A stretch of 43,986 bases of DNA from Rhodothermales bacterium (GTDB lineage: Bacteria > Bacteroidota > Rhodothermia > Rhodothermales > BA12). Numbering within the stretch: position 1 is the first letter of the stretch; every line of letters starts with the position of its first letter. A model generated the notes under the pieces. That model worked only from the letters and a program-made list of their open reading frames with translations. It searched no databases and had not been told where the DNA came from. Where the stretch lies: the NCBI GenBank assembly GCA_014879465.1, contig JACSSA010000098.1, positions 1 to 43,986 of the forward strand. Direction: 5' to 3'. The position numbers were made by a program, and so were the translations under genes. Positions 5,067 through 42,973 of this stretch are shown piece by piece.

Positions 5067-6260
5067 ATGGCCACCACCGCCAAAGCCGCCAAGCCGCGCC
5101 GCGCCGCGGCCTCCGATGTTACGGGAGATGCTTCCGCTTCGCCTGCCGAGGTGGGCGGCGACGGAGCATCCGGCGTAGCTCCCGAAGGCGTTCTCCCCGA
5201 CGCCGTCCGCGAGGAGCAGATCGTCATCACCAAGACCGTCGCCTCGTATCCTGCCGACGTCTACTCGCACACGGAACTGGGCCTGTCCAAGGACGATCTG
5301 CTGGCGATGTACCGCTCGATGCTGCTCCAGCGCCGCTTCGAGGAGCGTGCCGCGCAGGCCTACGGCAAGCAGAAGATCGCGGGCTTCCTCCACCTCTACA
5401 TCGGGCAGGAGGCGGTTTCCACCGGGGCCGTCAACGCGATCCACGTCGGCAAGGACTCGGTCATTACGGCGTACCGCGACCACGGCCTTGGCCTTGCGCT
5501 CGGCATGACGGCCCGCGAGGGCATGGCCGAGATGTTCGGGCGCGCCACCGGCTCGTCGAAGGGCAAGGGCGGCTCGATGCACTTCTTCAAGGAGTCGGTC
5601 GGGATGTACGGCGGCCACGGCATCGTCGGCGGCCACGTTCCCGTAGGCGTGGGCCTCGCGTTCGCGCACAAGTACAAGGGCGACGGCGGCCTGAGCCTCA
5701 CGTTCCTCGGCGACGGCGCGGTGGGGCAGGGCGCGGTCCACGAAGCGCTCAACCTCGCGGGGCTGTGGGACTGCCCGGCCATCGTCATCATCGAAAACAA
5801 CGGCTACGCGATGGGCACCTCCATCCAGCGCGCCTTCTCGGAGCCGGAGTTCGTTCGCCTCGCCGTCGGCTACGGCATCGACGCGATGGTGGTGAACGGC
5901 ATGGACGTGCTCACCGTGACGAAGGCCCTGCGCGACGCCGCCGTGCTTGCCCGCAGCGGTCGCCCGGTGCTCGTCGAGATGCGCACCTACCGCTACCGGG
6001 GCCACTCGATGTCGGACCCGCAGAACTACCGCACCAAAGAGGAGCTCGACGCCAAGAAGGAAGAGGATCCGATCCTCCGCCTCAAGGCCTACCTCTTGGA
6101 GCACCAGCTCTCCACCAACGAGGTGCTCGACGCCATCGACGAGGAGGTGAAGGCCGAGGTGCTCGACGCCGTCGATTTTGCCGACAACAGCCCGCTGCCG
6201 GAGCTGAAAGACGCCTACGACGACGTGTATGTGCAGGAGGACTACCCCTTTCTCAAGTGA
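5067..6260 (+). CDS. pdhA: Pyruvate dehydrogenase E1 component, alpha subunit
   Basis: 397 residues from ATG 5067; the frame is open further upstream, but only this ATG starts a plausible product (MATTAKAAKPRR). The Ala/Lys-rich first ~60 residues are a linker, after which the E1-alpha fold begins at LLAMYRSMLLQRRFEERAAQ. Seen motifs: IGQEAVSTGA, the phosphorylation-loop region TAYRDHGLGLALG, GSSKGKGGSMHFF, the thiamine-diphosphate motif GDGAVGQG...ENNGYAMGT, and RYRGHSMSDPQNYR. With E1 beta it decarboxylates pyruvate and reductively acetylates the E2 lipoyl group. It is first of the cluster, 92 bp before pdhB. A branched-chain 2-oxoacid substrate is less likely but not excluded by sequence alone. 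Confidence 0.93.
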   Translation: MATTAKAAKPRRAAASDVTGDASASPAEVGGDGASGVAPEGVLPDAVREEQIVITKTVASYPADVYSHTELGLSKDDLLAMYRSMLLQRRFEERAAQAYGKQKIAGFLHLYIGQEAVSTGAVNAIHVGKDSVITAYRDHGLGLALGMTAREGMAEMFGRATGSSKGKGGSMHFFKESVGMYGGHGIVGGHVPVGVGLAFAHKYKGDGGLSLTFLGDGAVGQGAVHEALNLAGLWDCPAIVIIENNGYAMGTSIQRAFSEPEFVRLAVGYGIDAMVVNGMDVLTVTKALRDAAVLARSGRPVLVEMRTYRYRGHSMSDPQNYRTKEELDAKKEEDPILRLKAYLLEHQLSTNEVLDAIDEEVKAEVLDAVDFADNSPLPELKDAYDDVYVQEDYPFLK

Positions 6261-6352
6261 GGAATGGCCAAGTGCCAAAGGTCCAATGTCGATTGCAACG
6301 ACAGAAAACCTTTTCCATCTGACTCTTGACCCTTCCCATTCGATCTTTTCCC

Positions 6353-7336
6353 ATGCCTGAACTGCAACTGCGTGAAGCCCTCCGTGCCGCCATGACGGAG
6401 GAGATGGAGCGCGACGAGAACGTCTTCCTCCTCGGCGAAGAAGTGGCCGAGTACAACGGCGCCTACAAGGTTTCGGAAGGCATGCTGGCCCAGTTTGGCC
6501 CCAAGCGCATCATCGACACGCCGATCTCGGAACTGGGCTTCTCGGGCGTGGCCATCGGTGCGGCGCTCAAGGGACTGCGGCCCATCGTCGAGTTCATGAC
6601 GTGGAACTTCGCGTTCGTGGGCATCGACCAGATCATCAGCAACGCCGCCAAGATCCGGTACATGTCGGGCGGGCAGCTCAAAGTGCCGATCGTCTTCCGG
6701 GGGGCCAACGGCTCGGCTGGGCAGCTCGGCGCGACGCACTCGACGTCGGTCGAATCCATCTACTCCGTCTTCCCCGGCCTCAAGGTGATCTCGGTGTCCA
6801 ACCCCGACGATGCCTACGGCCTGCTCAAGTCGTCCATCCGCGACGACGATCCGGTGATCTTCTGCGAGTCGGAGGTGATGTTCGGACTCAAGGGCGAGGT
6901 CGAACTGGGCAAGGATCGCCTCATCCCCATCGGCAAGGCCCGCATCGGGCGCGAAGGCTCGGATGTGACGCTTGTGGCGTGGAACAAGAGCTACTGGACG
7001 GCGATGCGCGCCGCCGAGGAACTGGCCAAAGAGGGCATTTCTGCCGAGGTCATCGACCCGCGCACGATCCGCCCGCTCGACATCGACGCCATCCTCGGCT
7101 CGGTGGCCAAAACCAACCGCCTCGTGATCGTGGACGAGGCCAACCCGTTCGCGTCCGTCGCCTCCGAAATCACCTACCAGGTGCAGGAACGGGCGTTCGA
7201 CCGTCTCGACGCGCCGATCCTGCGGGTGACGAGCCAGGACATTCCTGCGCCCTACGCCAAGAACCTGATCGAAGCCTATGTGCCGCAGGTCCACGAGATC
7301 GTGGAGGCCTGCCGCAGCGTCTCGTACGTCGCCTAA
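6353..7336 (+). CDS. pdhB: Pyruvate dehydrogenase E1 component, beta subunit
   Basis: 327 residues from ATG 6353 (MPELQLREAL), the standard E1-beta start; an upstream TTG at 6326 is rejected. The transketolase pyrimidine-binding domain contains VFLLGEEVAEYNGAYKVSEG, DTPISELGFSGVAIGAA and the GGQLKVPIVFRGANG region. The C-terminal transketolase domain contains VTLVAWNKS, EVIDPRTIRPLD and the final PYAKNLIEAYVP. It forms the heterotetramer with PdhA. The 92-bp spacer before it is less GC-rich than the genes but shows no clear terminator, so one transcript with pdhA is likely. Confidence 0.94.
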   Translation: MPELQLREALRAAMTEEMERDENVFLLGEEVAEYNGAYKVSEGMLAQFGPKRIIDTPISELGFSGVAIGAALKGLRPIVEFMTWNFAFVGIDQIISNAAKIRYMSGGQLKVPIVFRGANGSAGQLGATHSTSVESIYSVFPGLKVISVSNPDDAYGLLKSSIRDDDPVIFCESEVMFGLKGEVELGKDRLIPIGKARIGREGSDVTLVAWNKSYWTAMRAAEELAKEGISAEVIDPRTIRPLDIDAILGSVAKTNRLVIVDEANPFASVASEITYQVQERAFDRLDAPILRVTSQDIPAPYAKNLIEAYVPQVHEIVEACRSVSYVA

Positions 7337-8776: not shown

Positions 8777-9640
8777 ATGGAGCCTGCCGAAACGCCGCTG
8801 TTCGTTCTTGCCCACGCCTCCGACATCCACTTCGGGGCGATCGACGATCCTCGGGTGGTGGAGGCGCTTGTGGCCGAGATCAACGCGGCGGCGGTGGATC
8901 TGGTGTGCGTCTCGGGCGACCTGACGCAGCGTGCGCGTGCCCGCGAGTTTGACGCCGCTCGTACGCTGCTGGCCCGGTTCGAGGCGCCGTATGTGGTCGT
9001 GCCCGGCAACCACGACGTCTACCAGTGGTGGAATCCGATCAAGCGGGTGTTCAGGCCGCTGCGCCGCTACCGCCGGGAAATCACCGACGATCTGACGCCG
9101 TCGTTTGAGCAGGGGAACGGCGCGCGCGGCTTGGCGGTGCTCGGCATCAACTCCGCGTACGGGCGCACCCGCAAAGGCGGGCACATTGCGTCGGCGATGC
9201 GGGCGGCGATGCAAACGTTCTTCGGCAGCAAACCGACGGACACGTTCAAGGTGCTCGTGCTGCACCACCACCTGACGCGGCTCCGGGCGCTCGGCCGCCA
9301 CGACGTGTCGCGGAAGGCTCCTCCCACGCTCGCGCTTGCGCAAACGCTCGGCGTCGACCTGATCCTCTGTGGCCACCTGCACATCTCGCACGTCGAGGCG
9401 GTTGGCAACGATGCGCCGGTGCCCGGGGCCATCGAAACGCTCGGGCGCGGGGCGAGGCGTGTGGTGATTGCCAGCGCCGGAACGGCCACCTCTACGCGCG
9501 GGCGCGGCAAGCACCGGCAGGCGAACTTCTACAACCTCGTTCGCGTCTTTGCCGACCGGTTCGAGATCGTCGAGCGCCGCTTTGACCCGGCAGCAGGAGC
9601 GTTTGCCGATGTCGACGTCCGCGCCTTTGCGCGTGTCTGA
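8777..9640 (+). CDS. Metallophosphoesterase (calcineurin-like)
   Basis: 287 residues from ATG 8777. All five calcineurin-type motifs are visible in order: HASDIHFG (D-x-H), VSGDLTQRA (GD), VPGNHDVY (GNHD), VLHHHL (H) and CGHLHISH (GHxH). These bind a two-metal centre. No signal peptide or membrane segment is present, so the protein is cytoplasmic. The substrate cannot be deduced; relatives include cAMP/cyclic nucleotide phosphodiesterases and nucleases. It is separated from pdhC by the 8733-8763 hairpin and convergent with rodA (20 bp). Confidence 0.88.
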   Translation: MEPAETPLFVLAHASDIHFGAIDDPRVVEALVAEINAAAVDLVCVSGDLTQRARAREFDAARTLLARFEAPYVVVPGNHDVYQWWNPIKRVFRPLRRYRREITDDLTPSFEQGNGARGLAVLGINSAYGRTRKGGHIASAMRAAMQTFFGSKPTDTFKVLVLHHHLTRLRALGRHDVSRKAPPTLALAQTLGVDLILCGHLHISHVEAVGNDAPVPGAIETLGRGARRVVIASAGTATSTRGRGKHRQANFYNLVRVFADRFEIVERRFDPAAGAFADVDVRAFARV

Positions 9641-9660
9641 CCCCCGGCCAAGGCAACCGT

Positions 9661-10932
9661 TCAGTAGCCGAGCGAGCCGGTCACGTCGTCGCGGTGCAGG
9701 TGAAGGCTCAGGCTAATCGCCAGCATCAGCGTGTTGGCCATCAGCGCCGCGCCGCCGTACGACACAAACGGCAGCGGAATGCCGATCACCGGCAGCAGGC
9801 CCGTCACCATTCCGATGTTGACGAACAGGTGGATGAGGAAGATGCCCGCCGTGCCCGCCGCGAGCATCGACCCGAACGGGTGGCGCATCTGCACGCCGAG
9901 GCGCACGAGCCGGGTGAGCAGCAGGCCGTAGAGCACGAGCAGCGTCATCCCGCCCAGAAAGCCGAACTCTTCGCCGATGATGGTGAAGACAAAGTCGGTG
10001 GACTGTTCCGGGATGTATGCGCCTTGCGTCTGTGAGCCGTGCATGAACCCTTTGCCGGTGAGGCCGCCCGAGCCGATGGCCGCCTTGGCCTGCACTTGGT
10101 GGTAGCCCACACCGGAGCGAAACTCCTCGGCTTCGGGGTTGGTGAACGCTTCGATGCGGGCGCGTTGGTGCGGTTGGAGCTGGCTCACGGCCACGCCTGC
10201 CACCGCCACCACGCCGAACGTGAACGCCACGGCAAGGCCGGTGAGGAGCCGGTCTTTGGTTGCGATCCACATTCCCGCCGAGAGCACGAGCGAGACGGCC
10301 AGCGCCACCGGAAGCGACACGATGGCGAAGTATCCGGCCAGCGCCGGGGCCATCATCAGCGCCAAGACGTTGAGTGGCAACTCGCTCCAAAACAGCATGA
10401 TCGGAATCAGCCCAAGGAAGACGAGGCCCGTGCCGGTGTCGTTCTGCGGCCCGATTACGATGGCCGCCGGAATGAGCAGCAAAACCGTGGCGGCGATGCC
10501 GTAGCGCAGGTTGTTGGAGCCGGGGCGGCGGTTGGACAGCAGTGCCGCCACGGCGAGCAGCGTCGCCACCTTGGCGAACTCGGCGGTTTGGATCGAGAAG
10601 CCGCCGGGCAGCGGCAGCCAGCCCTTCGCCCCGTTGATCTCGCGCCCAATGGCGGCGGTGACGAGCAGCAGCACAAGCGTGACGAGGTACGCCGGGTACG
10701 CGATCGCCTGGAAAAACCGCATCCGCAGATTCAGGATCACCACCGCCCCAAGCACACCGACCGATCCAAAGATGACCTGCTTCTGGAAGTTGCGCGTCAT
10801 CTGCTCCGGCAGGTATTCCGCCGCCGGGCCGTGGGTGCTCGAATAGATGGCGATGAGGCCGATGACGACCAGTCCGGCCCACGCGAAGACGATCGTCCAC
10901 GACAGCTGACGGTACCAAGCGCGGGAGTTCAT
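9661..10932 (-). CDS. mrdB: Rod shape-determining protein RodA (SEDS glycosyltransferase)
   Basis: 423 residues from ATG at 10932 (MNSRAWYRQLSW). The frame is open much further upstream, through mrdA on the same strand, but that extension is not a protein. About ten hydrophobic segments are present. SEDS signatures include GREINGAKGWLPLPGGFSIQTAEFAK written as two parts (GREINGAKGW; IQTAEFAK), PQNDTGTGLVFLG, YHQVQAKAAIGSGG, TDFVFTIIGEEFGFLG and the C-terminal PFVSYGG. It polymerises lipid II into glycan strands for cell elongation together with the class B PBP encoded just upstream. The gap to mrdA is 53 bp, so one operon is expected. Confidence 0.95.
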   Translation of the reverse strand: MNSRAWYRQLSWTIVFAWAGLVVIGLIAIYSSTHGPAAEYLPEQMTRNFQKQVIFGSVGVLGAVVILNLRMRFFQAIAYPAYLVTLVLLLVTAAIGREINGAKGWLPLPGGFSIQTAEFAKVATLLAVAALLSNRRPGSNNLRYGIAATVLLLIPAAIVIGPQNDTGTGLVFLGLIPIMLFWSELPLNVLALMMAPALAGYFAIVSLPVALAVSLVLSAGMWIATKDRLLTGLAVAFTFGVVAVAGVAVSQLQPHQRARIEAFTNPEAEEFRSGVGYHQVQAKAAIGSGGLTGKGFMHGSQTQGAYIPEQSTDFVFTIIGEEFGFLGGMTLLVLYGLLLTRLVRLGVQMRHPFGSMLAAGTAGIFLIHLFVNIGMVTGLLPVIGIPLPFVSYGGAALMANTLMLAISLSLHLHRDDVTGSLGY

Positions 10933-37731: not shown

Positions 37732-38910
37732 ATGCTGCGTCGCCTTCTGTCCGTGCTGCTGCTGCTGGTTGCCGTGCCCCTGACGTCGGCGCAGACGCGC
37801 CGTGCCCCGGCGCGGGCCGCGTCGTCCATCTTCGCCGACGCCGAGGCCCGCGCCCACGCCGAGGCCGCGTTGGCCGCCGCCAACGACCTGCGCTTCGCCG
37901 ACGTGGAGACGCATGTGGTTGCTCTTGCTGAACGCTACCCCGGCCACCCGGCCGTGCCGTTCTTGCGGGCGCAGACGCTGTGGTGGCGCATTCTGCTCGA
38001 CCTCTCGAACAACGCCTACGACGCGCCCTTCAACCAGCAGATGGACGCCGTTGTCCGCGCCGCCGACGCCCGGCTCCGCCGCAACCGAAACGACTTCGAC
38101 GCTCGCTTCTTCCGGGGCGTCGCGCTCGGCTACAAGGCCCGGATGCACGTCAACCGCAGCCGATGGTGGCCCGCCGCCCGCGACGGAAAGGACGCCTTAG
38201 ACGATGTACTGTTCGTCTCGCGCCGCAACGAGGGCAACCCCGACTACGGCTTCGGGCGCGGCCTCTACGACTACTACGCCGAGGTTATTCGCGACCGCTA
38301 CCCGGCGGCCTTGCCCGTGCTCGTTTTCTTCCCCGACGGCAACCGCGAGCGCGGCCTGGCAGCTCTTCGTGCCGCTGCCGAGCGCGGCACGTTCACCCGC
38401 AGCGAGGCCACCTACTTCCTCGCCCAAATCCTGTACCTCTACGAAGGACGCCCGCTCGAAGCCCTCGTCTATGTGCAGCAACTCCGGGCGCGGCACCCCG
38501 GCAACCCGTACTTCAATGCCTTCGAAGGACGGCTTTTGCTGGCCACCGGGCAATACGACGCGGCGCGCACCGTCTTTGCCGGCATCGTGGCCCGCTACGA
38601 CGCCGGGCAGAGTGCCTACGCCGGCCTCGCCGAGCAGAGCCTCTTCCAGTTGGCCCGGTTGGAGATGATGCAGGGGCGGCCTGAATCGGCGATTGCGCAC
38701 CTCGACCGGGTGGAGATGCTCACCGAGCGCTTTCGCGGCGGCGAGAGCTACTACCGCGTGCTCGGGCGGCTGCGGCGCGGAATGGCGCTCGACCAACTCG
38801 GCCGCCGCGACGAGGCGGTGGCGCTCTACGAACAGGTGCTCCGGATGCGCGACCTCTCCGACAGCCACGCCGCCGCACGCCGCTACCTCGAACGGCCCTA
38901 CGGCTCGTAA
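37732..38910 (+). CDS. Secreted TPR-repeat protein
   Basis: 392 residues from ATG 37732. Sec signal peptide MLRRLLSVLLLLVAVPLTSA. The mature part is helical with TPR-like units: FADVETHVVALAERYPGHPAVPFLRAQ at the start, LYEGRPLEALVYVQQLRARHPGNPYF, TGQYDAARTVFAGIVARY, and MALDQLGRRDEAVALYEQVL near the end (shown here as pattern guides). A conserved middle part with SRWWPAARDGKDALDDVL and YGFGRGLYDYYAEV is like periplasmic TPR proteins of Bacteroidota. Probably a periplasmic scaffold; no enzymatic motif. Upstream lies the operator array. Confidence 0.75.
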   Translation: MLRRLLSVLLLLVAVPLTSAQTRRAPARAASSIFADAEARAHAEAALAAANDLRFADVETHVVALAERYPGHPAVPFLRAQTLWWRILLDLSNNAYDAPFNQQMDAVVRAADARLRRNRNDFDARFFRGVALGYKARMHVNRSRWWPAARDGKDALDDVLFVSRRNEGNPDYGFGRGLYDYYAEVIRDRYPAALPVLVFFPDGNRERGLAALRAAAERGTFTRSEATYFLAQILYLYEGRPLEALVYVQQLRARHPGNPYFNAFEGRLLLATGQYDAARTVFAGIVARYDAGQSAYAGLAEQSLFQLARLEMMQGRPESAIAHLDRVEMLTERFRGGESYYRVLGRLRRGMALDQLGRRDEAVALYEQVLRMRDLSDSHAAARRYLERPYGS

Positions 38911-38916
38911 GGCGGC

Positions 38917-39225
38917 TCAGATCTCGGCGTAGACGAGCACGAACGCACCGACGACCGTGAGCAACAGCGACACCGAGAACACCCACTCCGCCATCGAAAC
39001 AAGACGGTCGACCCGAAGCGTTTTCGTCTCTTTCTGGGCGAGGTAGCCCAGCGCCAGCACCACGAGAAACCCCAGCGACGAGAACAGGAACAGGTCGTCG
39101 GCGACGGTTTCCGTGCCGTCCATCGACGACTTGGCCGCGAGGATGCCTACCAGCGCCAATCCGATGCCGGCCATCGTGCCGCTGATGGATACCAAGGTGT
39201 CGATGGACGAATCGGTGTTGGACAC
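38917..39225 (-). CDS. Hypothetical three-helix membrane protein
   Basis: 102 residues from GTG at 39225 (MSNTDSSIDTLVS). A TTG at 39282 would lengthen it with low-complexity residues, so I prefer the GTG. Three hydrophobic segments at about 13-30, 45-62 and 77-98, joined by a basic loop (KETKTLRVDRL). No family recognised. It is convergent with the TPR gene (6 bp) and lies between it and the broken GNAT gene. Confidence 0.55.
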   Translation of the reverse strand: MSNTDSSIDTLVSISGTMAGIGLALVGILAAKSSMDGTETVADDLFLFSSLGFLVVLALGYLAQKETKTLRVDRLVSMAEWVFSVSLLLTVVGAFVLVYAEI

Positions 39226-39288
39226 GGCGACGGCGGGAGAGGAGCGAGCGGAAAGATCGCATTCGGCCGCCACGCCGCGCAAGCCCGC

Positions 39289-39519
39289 TCAGGCGCTTTC
39301 GGCGGCCCCGGCTGCGATGCGTTCCGCCGGAGCGACGAGGTAGTCGAACGCGTCTGTGCCCGGCTCGTCGCCGGGGTACGGCGCGCTCCGAAACCCCATC
39401 GACGCGTAGAGCCGCGACGCGACGGCGTTCTCCGGAAGCACGAACAGCGCCGCCTCCGCCGCGCCCGCGTGCCAATCCGCGCATGCGGACGCCACGTTAC
39501 AGACGACGCCCGCGTGCAC
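39289..39519 (-). pseudogene. GNAT acetyltransferase, C-terminal remnant
   Basis: The frame reads from about 39519 (GTG) to a stop at 39289. The stretch ALFVLPENAVASRLYASMGF is the GNAT motif-B end (x-N-x-x-A-x-x-LY-x-x-x-GF) with a normal C-terminus after it. The N-terminal part with the acetyl-CoA-binding Q/R-x-x-G-x-G/A loop is missing: the same frame extends only ~15 codons further before a stop at 39565, inside the SIR2 gene. So the 5' part of a resident GNAT gene has been replaced by the SIR2 gene region. Whether the remnant is translated is unknown. Confidence 0.6.
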
Positions 39520-39532
39520 GATATCGCGTGCA
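39511..39532. repeat. Short direct repeat with dyad, just upstream of the SIR2 gene
   Basis: CGCGTGCA occurs at 39511-39518 and 39525-39532, separated by CGATAT. The segment TGCACGATATCGCGTGCA is also a near-palindrome centred on CGATATCG. It lies 14 bp before the SIR2 start and near the presumed left edge of the acquired block, so it could be an operator or a junction trace. Confidence 0.35.
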
Positions 39533-39545
39533 TACTTCTGGATGC

Positions 39546-41432
39546 ATGGCCAAACGCACCGCCCCTACCTCGTCGCCCACCGACGCTCCGCCGCTCGTAT
39601 ACGACCGGGTAGAACTTGATTTCGTCGCCGCCGAGATGCGAGCGGCGCAAAAGCGCAGCCCAAAAGGCGGAAGCCCCGCCACGCTGTTCCTCGGCGCGGG
39701 GCTGTCCAAGAGCGCGGGCATCCCGCTCGCCAACGAGTTTGTGGAGCGGATTCTCCGCGACGACCACTTCAAGACGCGATTCCCCGGGCGCAAGGCGGCC
39801 ACCGACCCCGACGGAGACGGGACGGTGCTAACCTACCCCGAGTGCATGAAAAAGCTCACACCCACCGAACGGCGCGACGTGATCGGACCGTTCATGGAGG
39901 AGGCCACGCTGAACCGGGCGCACCTTGCCATCGCGCAGCTGATGAAGCACGGGTACGTGGACCGCATCCTCACCGTCAACTTCGACCCGCTGCTCGTCAA
40001 GGCGTGTGCCCTCGTCGGCGAGTTTCCCGCCGTGTACGACCTCGCCACCGCGCAAGACTTCGCGCCGCAGCTGATGCACCGCAAGGCCATCTGCTACCTC
40101 CACGGGCAGGCCCTCGGCGCGTTTCTCGTCAACACCGAAGCCGAAGGCCGAAAGCAGGCCAAACGCCTCGCGCCTCTCCTGCACGATACGTTCCGCGACC
40201 GGTTCGTGCTCGTGGCTGGGTACAGCGGCCAGAACGATCCGCTCCTCCGGGCCTTTCTCTCCGCCGGAGCGTTCGAGCGACATCTGGTGTGGACGTGTTA
40301 CGAGGACGAACCCGGTGATCATTTGGACGACCTCCTCAAACCCAACGCCAAACAACCGCGCTTCACCCACGCTCTCCCCGGTCAAAGCGCCGACACCTTC
40401 TTTGTCGCGTTGGCCGAAGCACTGGGCTGCTGGCCTCCCACGTTCCTCTCCGAGCCGCTCGGCTACATCCGAGAAGCACTCGCCTTGGTGCGCGAAGACC
40501 AGAACCTGAAAGAGCCGGTGGAACGGGTGCTCAAATTTGCGGAACGTAGTTGGGAGGAAGAAGGCGTTCAGGTTCTCTTGAATGTGACTTCGAGTCTTGT
40601 GAACGAGCGGTTCGACGAAGCAGAGAAGATTGGGAGACAAAGCTTCGCCAGCTACGCGGGCAAATCCGTTGAGCGCGAATTTCGAGAACTGACCGCATGG
40701 GCTATTATGTTGCGCGCTGGTGAGAGCACTCCGAAGGACTACGAAGAGGCGTGCAAAAAAGCGGCAGAGGTTGCCCCCCAATTGCCTCAGGCCTTCAGCA
40801 ACTGGGGAGTCGCGCTGACACAACTGTCCGAGGCTGAACCCGCTTACCGAGAAGAATACCTGCGCAATGCAGTGAAGAGATTTGAACAGGCCATCTCCAT
40901 CAGGCCTGATCTACCCGAGAGCCTCTTCAATTGGGGTTTCACTCTGGGAAAGATGGCCGATGCTGCCCACTCCCCAGCAGAGACGATCCGGTTGTGGCAT
41001 CTTGAAATTGAGAAGTACGCACAAGCCATCGTCATCAATCCCACTATGCATCAGGCTCTTATCAATTGGGGAAGCACACTGGCAAGTCTTGCCTACGCTG
41101 AACCAGAGCGAGCTACTGAACATCGCCGCGAGGCCATCAGGAAATTTGAGCAGGCTGTTGCAATTAAGTTCGACTTGCACGAGGCTTTCTTCAACTGGGG
41201 TCTCGTACTTGGTGCTTTGGCAGAGACAAAAGACGATGTTTTGCTTCTGGACGAGGCTAAAAAGAAGCTAGAGGCCGCGAATCGAATCACTCCGGGAAGT
41301 GCAGCCAAGGGGCTTGATTTGCTTGCGGCTATCCGGGCAAGGATGAAGTCTGACCCCAAAGAAGCGGCGGAGGCGGAGACGTCGCCCGAGAAGCCGAAGC
41401 GGCGGCGCATAAACGGCAAGACACAGGGCTGA
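39546..41432 (+). CDS. SIR2-domain protein with C-terminal TPR-like repeats (candidate defence effector)
   Basis: 628 residues from ATG 39546. SIR2-like core (about 44-300): TLFLGAGLSKSAGIPLANEF with GAGLS at 50-54 and GIP at 58-60, ILTVNFDPLL with N145 and D147, CYLHG with His186 as the likely catalytic residue, and AGYSGQNDPLL at 224-234. No zinc-binding Cys quartet, unlike deacetylase sirtuins, so an NAD-hydrolysing role is more likely. A helical linker follows, then four repeats marked by NWG at 419, 462, 507 and 550 (43-45 residue spacing), each followed by a helix pair such as AVKRFEQAISIRPDLPESLF. The tail is basic (PEKPKRRRINGK). Composition falls from host-like in the SIR2 half to AT-richer in the repeat half. 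Sensor-plus-NADase layout suggests abortive infection; target unknown. Confidence 0.85.
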   Translation: MAKRTAPTSSPTDAPPLVYDRVELDFVAAEMRAAQKRSPKGGSPATLFLGAGLSKSAGIPLANEFVERILRDDHFKTRFPGRKAATDPDGDGTVLTYPECMKKLTPTERRDVIGPFMEEATLNRAHLAIAQLMKHGYVDRILTVNFDPLLVKACALVGEFPAVYDLATAQDFAPQLMHRKAICYLHGQALGAFLVNTEAEGRKQAKRLAPLLHDTFRDRFVLVAGYSGQNDPLLRAFLSAGAFERHLVWTCYEDEPGDHLDDLLKPNAKQPRFTHALPGQSADTFFVALAEALGCWPPTFLSEPLGYIREALALVREDQNLKEPVERVLKFAERSWEEEGVQVLLNVTSSLVNERFDEAEKIGRQSFASYAGKSVEREFRELTAWAIMLRAGESTPKDYEEACKKAAEVAPQLPQAFSNWGVALTQLSEAEPAYREEYLRNAVKRFEQAISIRPDLPESLFNWGFTLGKMADAAHSPAETIRLWHLEIEKYAQAIVINPTMHQALINWGSTLASLAYAEPERATEHRREAIRKFEQAVAIKFDLHEAFFNWGLVLGALAETKDDVLLLDEAKKKLEAANRITPGSAAKGLDLLAAIRARMKSDPKEAAEAETSPEKPKRRRINGKTQG

Positions 41433-41476
41433 ACCAATCTCCCGCCGGGCGTTCACCGGGGAAACGCTCCGGCCCG

Positions 41477-42595
41477 ATGCGCTTCTTTTCGTACACCGAC
41501 TGGGACGAGTCCCGCCACGGCGGCGACCACCAGACGCCCTTCGAGCGGCTCTTCGACCTCTTCCAGCAGCTGCTCACCCTCTCCGCCGGCAACGCGCAGG
41601 AGGCTCTCGACTGGATGGCCCAGCTCGACCGGCGCTACGGCCTCACCACCGACGACTACGGCCTCGGCGACTTCATCGACGAGCTCAAAGAACGCGGCTA
41701 CCTCCAAGACGACGGGCCGGGCGGCACGCCGCAGATCACGTCCAAGACCGAGCGCAGCCTCCGCCAGAAGGCGCTCGAAGACGTGTTCGGCAAGCTCCGC
41801 AAGTCCGGGCGCGGCCAGCACAAAACGCCGCACGCCGGGCAGGGCGACGAGCGGCAGCCCGAAACGCGCCCGTGGGCCTTCGGCGACGACATCGCCCACC
41901 TCGACGTGACGGCCACGCTCTCCAACGCCTTCCGCAACTCCGGCGAGGCGCTGCACCTGTCGGAGGACGACTTCGAGGTCTACGAAACCGACCACCACGC
42001 CACGACGGCGACGGTGCTGATGATCGACCTGTCCCACTCGATGATCCTCTACGGCGAAGACCGGATCACGCCCGCGCGCACGACGGCCCTTGCGCTCGCC
42101 GAACTCATCACCACGAAATACCCCAAGGACACGCTGGACATCGTCGCGTTCGGCACGGATGCGTGGGAAGTGCCGCTCAAGGAGCTGCCGTACCTGCAGG
42201 TGGGGCCGTTCTACACGAATACCCGCGCCGGGCTGATCCGCGCCCGCGACCTCCTGCGCCGCCGCAAGAACGCCAACAAGCAGATCCTGATGCTCACCGA
42301 CGGCAAGCCCTCGTGCCACTACGAAGGGCCGAACGGGCTGTCGGGGCGGCTCTACCGCAACGCCTTCGGCCTCGACCGCAAGGTGGTGAACAAGGTGTTG
42401 GACGAAGCCGCCGCGTGCCGCCGCGAGGGCATCCCGATCACCACGTTTATGATCGCCCGCGATCCGCTGCTCCAGCAGTTCGTCCACGAGCTGACCGAGA
42501 CGAACCAAGGCCGGGCGTACTACTCCAGCCTCGACGACCTCGGCGATTTCGTCTTCGAGGACTTCGTGCGCAACCGACGCAAGCGCGTCCGGTGA
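41477..42595 (+). CDS. VWA-domain protein (MIDAS intact)
   Basis: 372 residues from ATG 41477. N-terminal ~130 residues are acidic/helical with a Gly/His/Gln-rich linker. The VWA domain (about 175-360) has the MIDAS motif D184-L-S186-H-S188, the TNTRAGL loop (Thr247-Thr249) and LTDG with D275. Such VWA proteins usually work with a MoxR- or chelatase-type AAA+ ATPase encoded next to them, but none is present here. It begins 44 bp after the SIR2 gene on the same strand. Composition is host-like. It may be a resident gene or the second member of an acquired pair. Confidence 0.85.
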   Translation: MRFFSYTDWDESRHGGDHQTPFERLFDLFQQLLTLSAGNAQEALDWMAQLDRRYGLTTDDYGLGDFIDELKERGYLQDDGPGGTPQITSKTERSLRQKALEDVFGKLRKSGRGQHKTPHAGQGDERQPETRPWAFGDDIAHLDVTATLSNAFRNSGEALHLSEDDFEVYETDHHATTATVLMIDLSHSMILYGEDRITPARTTALALAELITTKYPKDTLDIVAFGTDAWEVPLKELPYLQVGPFYTNTRAGLIRARDLLRRRKNANKQILMLTDGKPSCHYEGPNGLSGRLYRNAFGLDRKVVNKVLDEAAACRREGIPITTFMIARDPLLQQFVHELTETNQGRAYYSSLDDLGDFVFEDFVRNRRKRVR

Positions 42596-42899
42596 CGGCC
42601 CGACGACCGAGCCGTTCTCGTGGGATGCGCTCGGAGATCGACTTCTGGCCTTCCTGGCGATCGTTCTGCGCCACGCCCCGGCCGGTCTGGTACATCACGC
42701 CGAGGCTGTTCTGCGCGGTGGCATTTCCCGCCTCGGCGGCTTGTCGCATGAGCGGGAGGGCTTCGGCGTATCGATTGGCGTCGAAGTGGATCTTGGCTTG
42801 GGCGAAGAGTTGGGCCGGCGTCTGGGCGGCGGCGGGCGCGGCGAGGACGAGGGCGAGCAGGGCGGCCAGCAGGGAGCGGCGAAGGAAGGGGCGGGCCAT
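42447..42899 (-). pseudogene. Sel1-repeat secreted protein, C-terminally truncated
   Basis: Starts at ATG 42899 with a good signal peptide (SLLAALLALVLAAPAAAQ). One Sel1-type unit follows: AEALPLMRQAAEAGNATAQN then SLGVMYQTGRGVAQND, ending about residue 80 (near 42660). Normally the next unit would begin with D-x-x-x-A-x-x-W/Y-Y. Instead the frame continues as unrelated Arg-rich sequence and runs antisense into the VWA 3' end before stopping at 42447. No Sel1 continuation was found in the other minus frames of 42596-42660. The gene therefore lacks its 3' part. Confidence 0.6.
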
Positions 42900-42973
42900 G
42901 GCGCATCGGGGTGCGAGCATGTGCCCAACGTGGCATCGGGCGGAGCAGTATGCAAGCGTTCTGTTTGCGGGCG

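Follow-up and report, generated by a model that had tools for sequence, protein, structure and literature searches.

The window, a whole contig of 43,986 nucleotides (C190), belongs to a Rhodothermales genome of 2.97 Mb in 219 contigs. On its plus strand, a gene encoding a SIR2-TPR protein is followed directly by a gene encoding a VWA-domain protein, as described in the first-pass annotation, and the Pfam domains of both proteins were found. To the left lie c1, a small membrane-protein gene missing from that annotation and the remnant of a GNAT gene; to the right lies a shortened Sel1/TPR gene (Table 1). As the relatives sampled include none from the same genus or family, comparisons were made within the order only.

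Table 1. Features of the locus, with positions in the window.
Feature	Position	Strand	Basis
c1, secreted TPR protein, conserved; the ancestral gene to the left of VWA	37732-38910	+	start MLRRLLSV at 37732; homologues with 38-46% identity
Insert, ~2.57 kb, not present between c1 and VWA in relatives	38911-41476		junction comparison
Small predicted membrane protein, ~121 aa	38917-39282	-	convergent with c1, stops 6 bp apart
GNAT acetyltransferase remnant, C-terminal part only	~39289-39564	-	C-terminal motif and alignment with the G004 homologue
SIR2-TPR gene, 628 aa	39546-41432	+	Pfam SIR2_2 and TPR_11 above cut-off
VWA-domain protein, 372 aa	41477-42595	+	Pfam VWA_2
Sel1/TPR-like secreted protein, N-terminal part only	42645-42920	-	homologue comparison

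The VWA neighbourhood and the limits of the insert

Homologues of the VWA gene, with 65-77% identity and one copy each, occur in 44 of the 59 relatives of the same order, where they stand without a SIR2-TPR gene; VWA is thus a long-established resident, and this speaks against the VWA gene being cargo or a partner of SIR2, as had been proposed at first. In 23 of the 32 genomes inspected, a c1 homologue precedes VWA on the same strand at a distance of 2-195 bp. Of the other nine, one (G006) has c1 and VWA separated by 2384 bp with other genes, and eight have no c1 within reach. The usual gene order across 18 larger loci is c1 - VWA - ksgA - mgtE, in which the last two genes (c2 and c3) were assigned, by reading their sequences, to a KsgA/RsmA-type methyltransferase and an MgtE-type transporter. 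The 2.4-kb stretch in G006 (L043 4630-6983) represents other genes that were inserted independently into the same junction between c1 and VWA. The GC3 of the VWA gene is 0.94, which is equal to or above that of resident genes.

Distant relatives of the VWA protein in Thermomicrobium and Tsukamurella are encoded beside an AAA ATPase of the 'sigma 54-interacting' kind. An ATPase with 50% identity is encoded in the genome studied here (G000 C39:31-1437), at a contig end and apart from VWA, and it is a probable partner of the VWA protein. Such a pair resembles the usual MoxR/chelatase-like AAA-VWA arrangement, which is unrelated to SIR2.

The gap between c1 and VWA is 2566 bp here, in comparison to 2-195 bp in the 23 relatives. 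Since c1 is complete in the window and adjoins VWA in most relatives, the extra DNA is the interval given in Table 1; its left limit is 38911, just after c1, and its right limit falls within 41433-41476, before VWA. It contains the small membrane-protein gene, the GNAT remnant and the SIR2-TPR gene, none of which was found at the c1-VWA junction of relatives. The first-pass annotation had regarded 39520-42660 as one inserted block with both the SIR2 and VWA genes inside. This proposal has to be abandoned, as the comparison places VWA outside the insert and relatives carry VWA at the same place, behind c1, without SIR2, which the annotation itself had named as an observation against it. The exact empty site was not seen at the DNA level because the closest relatives compared share only the order. 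A search of the insert borders for an integrase, transposase, tRNA, target-site duplication or Rfam element found none, and no defence island was found adjoining SIR2-TPR.

For the small membrane-protein gene, 113 further genomes of the order yielded no homologue. The stop of the GNAT frame lies 6 bp ahead of the start of this gene, and the two genes were perhaps once co-transcribed. The GNAT remnant bears only a C-terminal GNAT signature (...VLPENAVASRLYASMGF...), and it is 39% identical to the C-terminal part of the GNAT domain of its nearest homologue, from G004, in which this domain extends N-terminally by about 110 more residues. No Pfam domain matched the remnant and the NCBIfam matches were weak; the GNAT assignment therefore rests on the motif, the G004 match and these weak NCBIfam matches. 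Loss of the 5' part of this gene, proposed in the first-pass annotation, is thus borne out by the motif and the longer homologue. The open frame overlaps the SIR2 gene by about 19 bp.

On the other side, the minus-strand Sel1/TPR protein has a signal peptide, and its repeat similarity ends near 42650, about 55 bp past the VWA stop. That the gene lost its 3' part there agrees with the size of its homologues, which are frames of 281-641 aa. The ksgA and mgtE genes are still adjacent in this genome, although on another contig (C44). Because they normally follow VWA, we consider the Sel1 break to be a separate rearrangement, with loss of the VWA-ksgA adjacency, and not a second trace of the arrival of one block, to which both gene breaks had been ascribed. 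Nothing found ties the Sel1 break to the SIR2 insertion. A single break joining the Sel1 fragment to the contig of ksgA was also considered, and rejected, as the missing Sel1 part is not beside ksgA on C44.

The SIR2-TPR protein and its homologues

The SIR2-TPR protein consists of a SIR2_2 domain of the NADase type (residues ~45-293), a linker and a TPR array (residues ~396-602). The SIR2_2 match scores 26.8 bits at a Pfam cut-off of 24.5. The motifs G50xG52xS54, T143xNFD147 and H186G187 are kept across an alignment of 12 homologues, H186 being nearly invariant, and thus the catalytic-type residues Asn145 and His186 are present. A profile built from the homologues matches solved SIR2 proteins, namely 8in8 (9e-46), the partner of a short Argonaute, as well as KomC, DSR2 (6e-8), ThsA and, more weakly, human FAM118B. 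On the other hand, the CobB model gives just 19 bits at a cut-off of 320. No NTPase domain was found in the 628 aa. In the predicted structure the TPR half is a regular helical array (pLDDT ~75-95), and the Foldseek matches listed are TPR or other helical-repeat proteins. The SIR2 half mostly has pLDDT below 60 because the model used a two-sequence alignment, and its fold is therefore not confirmable from the model. Taken at sequence level, the earlier suggestion of a SIR2 NADase effector with a repeat-based sensor seems to be right, with the SIR2 motifs intact and a TPR array present.

The base composition of the gene is uneven. GC3 of the first 250 codons is 0.85-0.89, which is resident-like (resident mean 0.87), and every 150-codon window starting at codon 201 or later has a GC3 of 0.55-0.71, lower than in any of the 116 windows taken from 17 resident genes. 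The composition of TPR repeats as such could contribute to the low values, but c1, which also encodes a TPR protein, has a GC3 of 0.88. The mosaic may mark a swapped sensor half.

The SIR2-TPR gene was found in none of the 59 relatives; G009 has just a distant SIR2 protein (24%). The same domain order, without VWA or any fixed partner, recurs in L062 (Verrucomicrobia) and in L068 and L069, both from G199, a genome of the same phylum. A scan of genome contigs with SIR2-TPR returned L062 as its sole match. No VWA gene stands beside SIR2 in any of 13 SIR2 loci, nor a SIR2 gene beside VWA in any of the 32 VWA genomes, so the recurrence of the two genes as neighbours, which the first-pass annotation had proposed as a check, was not seen. 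Related SIR2 proteins are encoded by single genes in a mobile context: in the virus Halfgib1 near its integrase, in Vibrio elements beside an integrase, and on plasmids. In the Vibrio phage-like elements (L071 5019-6854 and L072 1354-3225) the SIR2 gene is apparent cargo by the integrase. In IMG/VR the single SIR2-TPR protein had no match, and the alignment gave just one, which was weak and limited to SIR2; literature searches found no named SIR2-TPR system.

In two of these homologues the TPR part is a tandem DNA repeat, with 3.8 units of 132 bp at 85% in L069 (6519-8333) and 5.5 units of 102 bp at 82% in L062 (6678-8786). High internal repeat conservation is seen in some immune-type repeat proteins. 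The L068 and L069 genes of G199 are paralogous SIR2-TPR genes with ~75% DNA identity and different numbers of TPR units. From the alike tandem units and the differing repeat numbers in G199, it follows that these TPR arrays expand and contract. No such tandem array was found in the SIR2-TPR gene of the window, whose TPR units have diverged. A 722-bp stretch from the 3' part of a permease gene stands on either side of the L062 gene as a direct duplicate (5793-6513 and 9554-10275, 94.9%), as if insertion of the SIR2-TPR gene had duplicated its flank.

Likeness to known SIR2 systems

A review counts seven anti-phage systems with SIR2 domains, tied to NAD+ depletion (PMC10952713). SIR2 identity of the SIR2-TPR protein to tested systems is low. 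Avs5 (AVAST type 5; SIR2-STAND-TPR/Sel1) likewise carries a SIR2 effector at the N terminus and TPR-type repeats at the C terminus. Those repeats are essential and have been proposed both to hold Avs5 inactive and to sense phage (PMC12931631). However, the protein described here has no STAND ATPase between SIR2 and repeats, and is only 628 aa long. DSR1 and DSR2 resemble it as single-gene, stand-alone SIR2 proteins with a C-terminal part, and DSR2 is reported to sense a phage tail tube protein (PMC11087589, PMC11263360). Full-length homology to DSR2 (~1005 aa) is absent, though, and the SIR2 core alone aligns in the profile match given above. The best PADLOC match is PDC-S65, a candidate single-gene SIR2 protein (SIR2 region 47-293, 4.4e-23), but it covers only model positions 35-290 of 592 (the family model spans 503-592 aa), which leaves the TPR half outside the family; all PADLOC matches of the window's protein are confined to SIR2. 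The plasmid homologues L074 and L075 fall in PDC-S65 along most of their length or all of it. The short Argonaute SIR2 proteins provide the closest solved SIR2 domain by profile (8in8), yet here there is no adjoining Argonaute gene and a TPR array replaces the rest of the protein. Halfgib1 QRG24194.1, from a virus with an integrase nearby, combines SIR2_2 with a downstream TPR part in a single gene, although its SIR2 part is 26% identical and its TPR part, besides being shorter, belongs to another type.

Possible function and alternative explanations

That the SIR2-TPR gene is foreign to the locus is supported by its absence in relatives, by its splitting of a conserved gene pair and by the aberrant GC3 of its TPR half. 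Judging from these features and from the domains, it probably encodes a horizontally acquired, single-gene abortive-infection protein that depletes NAD and has the TPR array as its sensor. The gene came to lie inside the c1-VWA pair, and the VWA protein is probably uninvolved. NADase activity, a phage trigger, the TPR array as sensor and the route of insertion are what we infer. The C-terminal TPR superhelix would keep the N-terminal SIR2 domain inactive until it binds an infection-associated protein. Such binding might free or oligomerise the SIR2 domain, which would then hydrolyse NAD+, so that growth of the infected cell halts before phage release. Avs5 and DSR2 serve as precedents for this mechanism. 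As there is no STAND ATPase here, TPR binding itself or oligomerisation would have to bring about activation directly.

It was plausible to assume that SIR2-TPR and VWA belong to one defence unit of two genes and were inserted together, as they are on the same strand, only 44 bp apart, with broken genes on either side. Nevertheless, the VWA gene is conserved across the order, where c1 and ksgA are its long-standing neighbours, it is in no other SIR2 locus, and its GC3 of 0.94 is far from the ~0.5-0.65 of the TPR half of SIR2-TPR; we thus consider such a unit hardly credible. Another scenario is that VWA is a resident to which SIR2-TPR has since become wired, through a shared transcript, co-regulation or guarding of the VWA/AAA ATPase system. 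In its favour are the same short same-strand spacing and the lack of any called terminator or promoter from the SIR2 stop to the VWA start. Moreover, the insertion separates c1 from VWA, and therefore VWA may depend on the SIR2 transcript. Consensus promoter scans are, however, weak evidence in a GC-rich genome, and the arrangement is known from one genome only, SIR2-TPR being alone elsewhere, which makes this scenario quite improbable.

A different kind of objection concerns the function of the protein itself, which might be a regulatory or protein-modifying sirtuin (a deacylase or an ADP-ribosyltransferase) with a TPR targeting domain, and not a defence protein. TPRs often bind partners, and some conflict-system sirtuins have been proposed to be ADP-ribosyltransferases (PMC9503650), which we count for this possibility. 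We nonetheless find it rather unlikely, as the protein falls in the defence branch, SIR2_2, and not with deacylases of the CobB type, and its homologues are found on viruses, on plasmids and beside integrases.

Returning to the single-gene abortive-infection protein, it may be asked whether it represents a compact, ATPase-free receptor family, NLR-like but lacking an NTPase, with a TPR sensor that is replaced or grows independently of the effector. The sensor-swapping idea comes from the foreign-like GC3 of the TPR half next to a resident-like SIR2 half and, elsewhere, from repeats that vary in number and are alike within a gene. We put this forward tentatively, as a possibility of low probability.

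What had been read as a two-gene defence system is thus corrected to a one-gene system, and a false lead linking SIR2 to VWA is removed. The SIR2-TPR protein, a small candidate fusion of effector and sensor, could reveal whether a SIR2 NADase can be gated by nothing more than a repeat array, with no STAND ATPase involved.
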